Shown one piece after another: positions 31,125 through 32,423 of a DNA stretch of 64,000 nt. Both the position numbers and the translations under genes were made by a program. The stretch lies in NCBI RefSeq assembly GCF_003933745.1, contig NZ_RSEB01000001.1:434001-498000 (forward strand), in the 5' to 3' direction. The notes beneath the pieces are model-generated. The model worked only from the letters and a program-made list of their open reading frames with translations. It ran no database searches and was not told the origin of the DNA. Every line of letters starts with the position of its first letter. The stretch's first letter is position 1. The DNA is from Glycomyces terrestris. GTDB lineage: Bacteria > Actinomycetota > Actinomycetes > Mycobacteriales > Micromonosporaceae.

Positions 31125-31364
31125 CTACTCGGTCGCCTCCGGGGGCTCGGCGCTCGAACGGCGGTCGTCGTCCCAGTAGGACTCGAGTTCCTCGCCGGTG
31201 AGGAGGCCGGTGGGCGGCTCGGTCGGGCGGATCAGCCCGGTCCCGCCGGGATCGGGCGTCGGCTCGCCGGAGTCGCCGCCGCGCAGGCCGGCCGCCAGCG
31301 CGATGCCGATGGCGAGCACGGCGACCGCGATCCCGGCCGCGAGGTAGATCGTCTCTCTGCGCAT
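31125..31364 (-). CDS. small membrane protein carrying a protease-propeptide-like segment
   Basis: 79 residues: a basic start, one membrane helix (about 6-26), a Gly/Pro spacer, then 36 external residues from LIRPTEPPTG to PPEATE. These align with residues 45-78 of the serine protease encoded 60 bases upstream (LISPTDEPRFQADDLDAYW and onward): LI-PT, acidic-L, acidic, YW, then R, SA, PE recur in order. It therefore looks like a membrane-tethered copy of part of the protease propeptide. It could inhibit, chaperone or retain the protease at the cell surface. The function is inferred. It would be co-transcribed with the protease unless the hairpin between them terminates. Confidence 0.6.
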   Translation of the reverse strand: MRRETIYLAAGIAVAVLAIGIALAAGLRGGDSGEPTPDPGGTGLIRPTEPPTGLLTGEELESYWDDDRRSSAEPPEATE

Positions 31365-31383
31365 CGTCCCTCCGGTGACGGGC

Positions 31384-31412
31384 GGCAGGCCGCGCGGTGG
31401 GCGCGGCCTGCC
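31384..31412. terminator. hairpin after the protease gene
   Basis: GGCAGGCCGCGC and its complement around GGTGG. It follows the protease stop and precedes the 79-residue gene, so it could reduce readthrough into the latter. Confidence 0.65.
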
Positions 31413-31424
31413 GGATCGAGGTGG

Positions 31425-32423
31425 CTACAGGGCGCTCATCTGGGTGTAGAAGTCCCAGATGACGTCGTCGAAGTAGCCGCTGAGGTTCCTTCCGTCAGAC
31501 GACCGCCAGGTGCTCTGGGTTCCATTGGCGAGCCCGAGCCCCGGGTAGCTCGCCGAGTACTCCAGCAGCCAGGGGCCGCCGCTCGCGCCGTGCGAGAAGT
31601 TGCAGTTCATCTGGATGCGGTCGTCGAAGAGTCCGGCGGACTCGCTCTGGCCCCAGCAGTGCCACTGCACTTCGTTGTTGTCGTGGTTGGCCGGGTATCC
31701 GATGGTGTGGAGGTCCACTTCGTAGCCCTGCCCGGTGGCGAAGCCGTGGCCGCCGACGACCTGGTTGAGGGTCTGGCCGCTGGAGTTGGTGTTCACGAGG
31801 AACATGCCGACGTCGCGGTTGACGTCGCCGTCGTCCGCCCACGAGGTGAGGACGGTCTGGGTGAAGTAGTCCGCCGTCCAGGTGCCGTTCGGCTCGTAGC
31901 CGTTGTCGTACCCGGGGACGAAGACGACGTTGGAGGACCAGCCGGCTGGGTCGTCGTAGGGCCCGTACAGGCAGTGCGCGGCGGTGAGCACGAGGCTCTG
32001 GTTGCCGCTGGCGAGGGCGGAGGCCGAGCAGCTGCTCGGGTCGCCGTTGAAGTCGTCGTAGAAGATGCGGCCGGTCGCGTACGAGTGGTCGATCTTCGGG
32101 GACGCGAACTCGGAGTCGGGGAGGACCGGTTCGACCAGCTGGGTCTCACCGAGGTCGAGGTCCTGGAACGCGTCGAGGTCCGGTGCGGTCTCCTCGACCT
32201 CCGGGAACTTCGCGGACGCCATGCGCTCCGGCGTCCAGTACGCGTCGAGGTCGTCGGCTTGGAATCGGGGTTCGTCGGTCGGGGAGATCAGCGAGACCCG
32301 CGAGTCGGCGTCGGTCTCGGGTGCCGCATTGGCAGCGGCGGGAACGAACGCCAGCGTCATCGCGAATGCGAAGAAGACGGCGGTCATCACTCGGATTGCA
32401 GAGCGGAAGCCCTTGTGCGCCAT
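31425..32423 (-). CDS. secreted trypsin-like serine protease
   Basis: 332 residues. A signal peptide (about 1-33, cleavage after AAANA) is followed by a propeptide (about 34-115) and a chymotrypsin-fold domain. Catalytic triad: LTAAHC H150, VNRDVG D204 and HGASGGPW S281. Cysteines pair around the active site (SSCS with AAHC; WHCW with MNCNF). It resembles the V8/trypsin-like peptidases of actinomycetes. The gene is visibly less GC-rich than its neighbours. Its propeptide shares a motif with the small membrane protein downstream. Confidence 0.92.
   Translation of the reverse strand: MAHKGFRSAIRVMTAVFFAFAMTLAFVPAAANAAPETDADSRVSLISPTDEPRFQADDLDAYWTPERMASAKFPEVEETAPDLDAFQDLDLGETQLVEPVLPDSEFASPKIDHSYATGRIFYDDFNGDPSSCSASALASGNQSLVLTAAHCLYGPYDDPAGWSSNVVFVPGYDNGYEPNGTWTADYFTQTVLTSWADDGDVNRDVGMFLVNTNSSGQTLNQVVGGHGFATGQGYEVDLHTIGYPANHDNNEVQWHCWGQSESAGLFDDRIQMNCNFSHGASGGPWLLEYSASYPGLGLANGTQSTWRSSDGRNLSGYFDDVIWDFYTQMSAL

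Follow-up and report, generated by a model that had tools for sequence, protein, structure and literature searches.

In the window (the whole 64,000-nucleotide stretch of Glycomyces terrestris DNA that was analysed), the tail of a small membrane protein resembled part of the propeptide of the adjoining secreted serine protease beyond chance, and the small protein was an optional partner of the protease. We give nearly an even chance to the small protein acting as a propeptide mimic, stand-alone and tethered to the membrane, which binds its protease in trans. The recurrent pairing of the two genes in other actinomycetes points to surface retention or restraint of the protease by the small protein. 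The positions of both open reading frames given in the original prediction were confirmed, and the features were as follows.

31125..31364, minus strand: small membrane protein, 79 aa (ORF call), with a membrane segment at about residues 6-24 and then a 55-residue acidic tail
31128..31235, minus strand: propeptide-like tail, small-protein residues 44-79 (aligned to protease residues 45-78, and profile comparison)
31383..31413, minus strand: 13-pair hairpin between the small gene and the protease gene, with no T-run after it; a 66-nt stretch folds at z-score -3.94
31425..32423, minus strand: secreted V8-like serine protease precursor, 332 aa, with triad H150, D204 and S281 (fold, alignment)
32190..32291, minus strand: protease propeptide segment, residues 45-78, including W63 and R67 (alignment; residues 61-70 at pLDDT 97)

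Likeness of the tail to the propeptide

Small-protein residues 44-79 paired with protease residues 45-78, as first described, with a local alignment score of 68. Shuffled tails gave a mean of 29.1 (sd 4.7) and none of 2000 scored as well. Three Glycomyces genomes provided nine tail-protease combinations, for which 0 to 15 of 2000 shuffles were as good. The motif common to tail and propeptide was L..YWxx[DE]Rx3AxP. Profile similarity, a test set beforehand, was significant: Glycomyces-only profiles of three small proteins (A2) and five proteases (A6), whose members were first found by whole-protein similarity, matched over 35 columns with 96.1% probability and E 3.2e-9. The wider profile sets gave 97.8% and E 7.5e-13, values biased by members gathered mostly by the motif itself. 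By alignment and profiles, the small protein was homologous to the propeptide of the adjoining protease. The earlier wording of a "partial copy" also fits, as the protease profile matched four orphan small ORFs through signal peptide and propeptide in order (profile positions 7-107, 17-85, 12-77 and 14-77, two of the four matches reading through one TGA).

The AlphaFold model of the precursor had a mean pLDDT of 89.3, with residues 61-70 at 97 and short helices at 59-62 and 65-70. For the small protein modelled alone, helices were predicted at residues 3-27, 57-63 and 66-72, the latter two being those of the motif (block means of 91 and 93); with the motif this confident in the absence of the enzyme, the two models do not discriminate a docked motif from a free one. 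The same predicted local structure of the motif in both proteins fits homology.

Tails also resembled the propeptides of their cognate proteases more than those of re-dealt partners. From 29 linked pairs, nine were dropped that had no full 20-letter core in the small protein, and the 20 left gave 17 non-redundant pairs. Their score sum was 782 against a re-dealt mean of 681.9 (sd 28.0), with 10 of 20000 re-dealings as good, in a test that ignores phylogeny. Four genomes had two or more motif proteases, two of them with a single alternative; in three of the four the cognate protease was the most tail-like, and in the other it ranked second of five. At the residue preceding the motif W, three linked pairs showed H/H, one H/Y and one Y/H, and this agreement was set aside as resting on too few cases.

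The protease, the small protein and the hairpin

The 332-residue protein began with a signal peptide and a propeptide, followed by a V8-like catalytic domain, and the G. terrestris genome held one match to the protease. The fold was that of the V8 group, with the V8-like proteases AL20 (3cp7) and Anisep (3wy8) as best Foldseek matches and closest solved relatives of the catalytic domain, followed by the glutamyl endopeptidase 1p3c; the motif profile itself matched no PDB chain significantly (best E 1). The protease scored 19.3 bits with Pfam Trypsin_2 (PF13365), below the gathering cut-off of 27.6 bits. The catalytic triad H150, D204 and S281 was invariant across 75 aligned rows, and so were propeptide residues W63, T64 and R67, a result biased by most rows having been gathered by the motif itself. 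Two motif proteases stood in tandem on one strand in L210, L290 and L291. The motif protease of genome G121 (L288:4220-5341) was interrupted by an in-frame stop, and its relative in G419 (L289) was intact.

The small gene lay downstream of the protease gene on the same strand, 60 bases from the protease stop, with a ribosome-binding-like GGAGGG 3 bases 5' of its ATG. The hairpin between the two genes was not called by the terminator scan. In G. salinus, a strong hairpin likewise lay between protease and small gene (L062:7840-7905, z-score -2.64). A hydropathy scan of the 79-residue protein showed a single N-terminal membrane segment, with the shared motif near the end of the tail, and the motif W, R and A were invariant in all 24 aligned small proteins with a single membrane segment. 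No Pfam or NCBIfam model was found for the shared motif in small proteins (P0001 gave no match, other members weak ones). Membership of the NCBIfam CU044_5270 family was rejected, the best score being 25.6 bits against a curated cut-off of 100 (ten small proteins, residues 3-55; P0001 without a match).

Distribution of the gene pair

Co-occurrence in relatives had been put forward as a check in the original prediction, and the two genes were found to adjoin there. Together with the profile similarity, this upheld part of the earlier reading; the pairing was not obligatory in either direction, something the original prediction had not anticipated. The protease was present in 5 of 22 Glycomyces genomes, with the small gene alongside in three of the five. 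Its other carriers were G. dulcitolivorans, G. tenuis, G. buryatensis and G. salinus, the first two of which had the protease without the small gene. In the fetched regions, 29 linked pairs from seven families were gathered, and because they occur on the same (24) as well as on opposite strands (5), the linkage survives rearrangement. Four of the 29 partners had no membrane segment in view (L174, L193, L242 and L243). Beside one small gene the protease frame was just 190 codons long (L115:4503-5072), and the enzyme may be broken there.

Matches to the motif profile, proteases included, occurred in 85 of 397 genomes of the order (profile A1, E 0.05), 104 of 394 genomes of the class (profile A3, E 0.02) and 75 of 151 genomes of genus g4 (profile A3, E 0.05). 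Twenty non-protease matches were examined among those listed in the class search (394 genomes), with long open frames away from a protease excluded; nine were at most 2 kb from a motif protease, eight were not, and three looked spurious (L277-L279). The genomes of all eight unlinked matches carried a protease of the family elsewhere. Regions picked by the motif protease had a small neighbour of at least 15 bits in 2 of 55 cases and none in 53, several of these regions ending at contig ends. The 55 were 60 regions from the top of the class-search list (L171-L230) minus four picked at a small match and L223, which had no protease. Next to the G490 protease, a small ORF (L293) reached 14.8 bits, under the 15-bit line, and was left uncounted. 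Searches with the whole small protein as query (E up to 1, 100 of 101 genomes) returned mostly membrane-segment noise, and only adjacent matches were used.

The small gene also occurred by itself. A small motif protein was present and no protease of the family was detected at E 1e-5 in two Glycomyces genomes, G003 (97% complete) and G020 (92%), and in six genomes of genus g74. In that genus, 8 of 10 genomes carried a small protein whose motif is followed by a second hydrophobic segment (L117-L120 and L284-L287); two of these eight also had a motif protease, and in six none was detected. Family f31 held a group of orphan small motif proteins (L244, L247-L250 and L274), and the next gene looked alike by eye in L244, L247 and L248. 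At L241 (G879) the motif was present with neither a nearby protease nor a visible membrane segment.

Possible roles of the small protein

Secreted proteases must stay inactive until they are outside the cell. If the small protein is a propeptide mimic, it would, on the simplest account, have originated by partial duplication of the 5' end of the protease gene, with the signal peptide of the duplicate becoming the membrane anchor. The tail would lie outside the membrane, a placement made because the N-terminus is positive and the tail acidic. There the tail motif may bind the cognate protease at the propeptide motif's own site, and the bound tail could inhibit the protease, retain it or help it fold at the cell surface, any one of the three. 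Pooled pN/pS of the motif in genus g4 was 0.21 (8 sequences) and 0.25 (3 sequences), and in the same two sets it was 0.36 and 0.73 for the linker and 0.38 and 0.79 for the membrane part; the Glycomyces motif gave 0.66, with pS nearly saturated. A role with the protease is the leading idea because of the links on both strands, the cognate likeness and the low pN/pS of the g4 motif. Telling against the mimic are the rarity of a small neighbour beside motif proteases, the two Glycomyces genomes that have the protease by itself, the four linked partners lacking a membrane segment, the eight genomes with the small gene in which no protease was detected, and the pN/pS of the Glycomyces motif. Such a mimic would give meaning to a motif for which no Pfam or NCBIfam model was found in the small proteins, and moving a propeptide module to a separate membrane protein would offer an uncomplicated means of holding or controlling a secreted protease at the surface. 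The gene pairs are common enough for testing.

It is possible, if somewhat doubtful, that these proteins form an undescribed family spanning several actinomycete families, in which anchored stand-alone propeptide motifs exert control in trans over their cognate V8-like proteases at the cell surface and some members are re-used for another partner where the protease is absent. Stand-alone propeptide-like inhibitors of the I29 and I9 types have the propeptide module as a separate protein; they belong with other protease families, are whole folded domains and are not known to be membrane-anchored. The small protein shares with them a propeptide module as its own protein and differs in its membrane anchor and protease family. 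Staphostatins are soluble cytoplasmic proteins and are not known to be copies of a propeptide. These inhibitors (ScpB and SspC) share an operon with a protease that the same bacterium secretes, and their targets are cysteine proteases (PMC8443034); the small gene is like theirs in adjoining the gene of a secreted protease. The neighbour here, however, is a serine protease and not a staphopain-type cysteine protease, which places the small protein outside that group. No literature on this motif or gene pair was found, as judged by titles and abstract openings.

The main rival, which we consider unlikely, makes the motif a recognition tag read by a third partner such as an envelope chaperone, convertase or receptor, with precursors and small proteins both being clients that need not touch. 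A third partner is kept in play because some genomes, eight by the detection above, carry the small gene without the protease. Small motif proteins distant from a protease (L223, L244, L246-L250 and L274) are consistent with it, as is the prediction that the motif forms its two short helices by itself. However, no third gene was spotted in ten orphan neighbourhoods viewed by eye, and a tag by itself explains neither the linkage to the protease nor the cognate likeness. A role for the small protein as substrate or surface docking site of the protease, and not as its regulator, is improbable. The same linkage and topology would be expected, and an acidic tail would suit a glutamyl-specific enzyme, a specificity known for some V8-like enzymes. 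Nothing specific speaks against this role, but the retention of W and R in both proteins indicates binding over a cleavage site. The small gene could also be a remnant, now without a role, of the 5' part of a duplicated protease gene, as the four orphan small ORFs matching signal peptide and propeptide in order might suggest; this is very improbable in view of the low motif pN/pS in genus g4, the links on opposite strands and the GGAGG found 5' of the small gene in 9 of the 13 tandem pairs checked.
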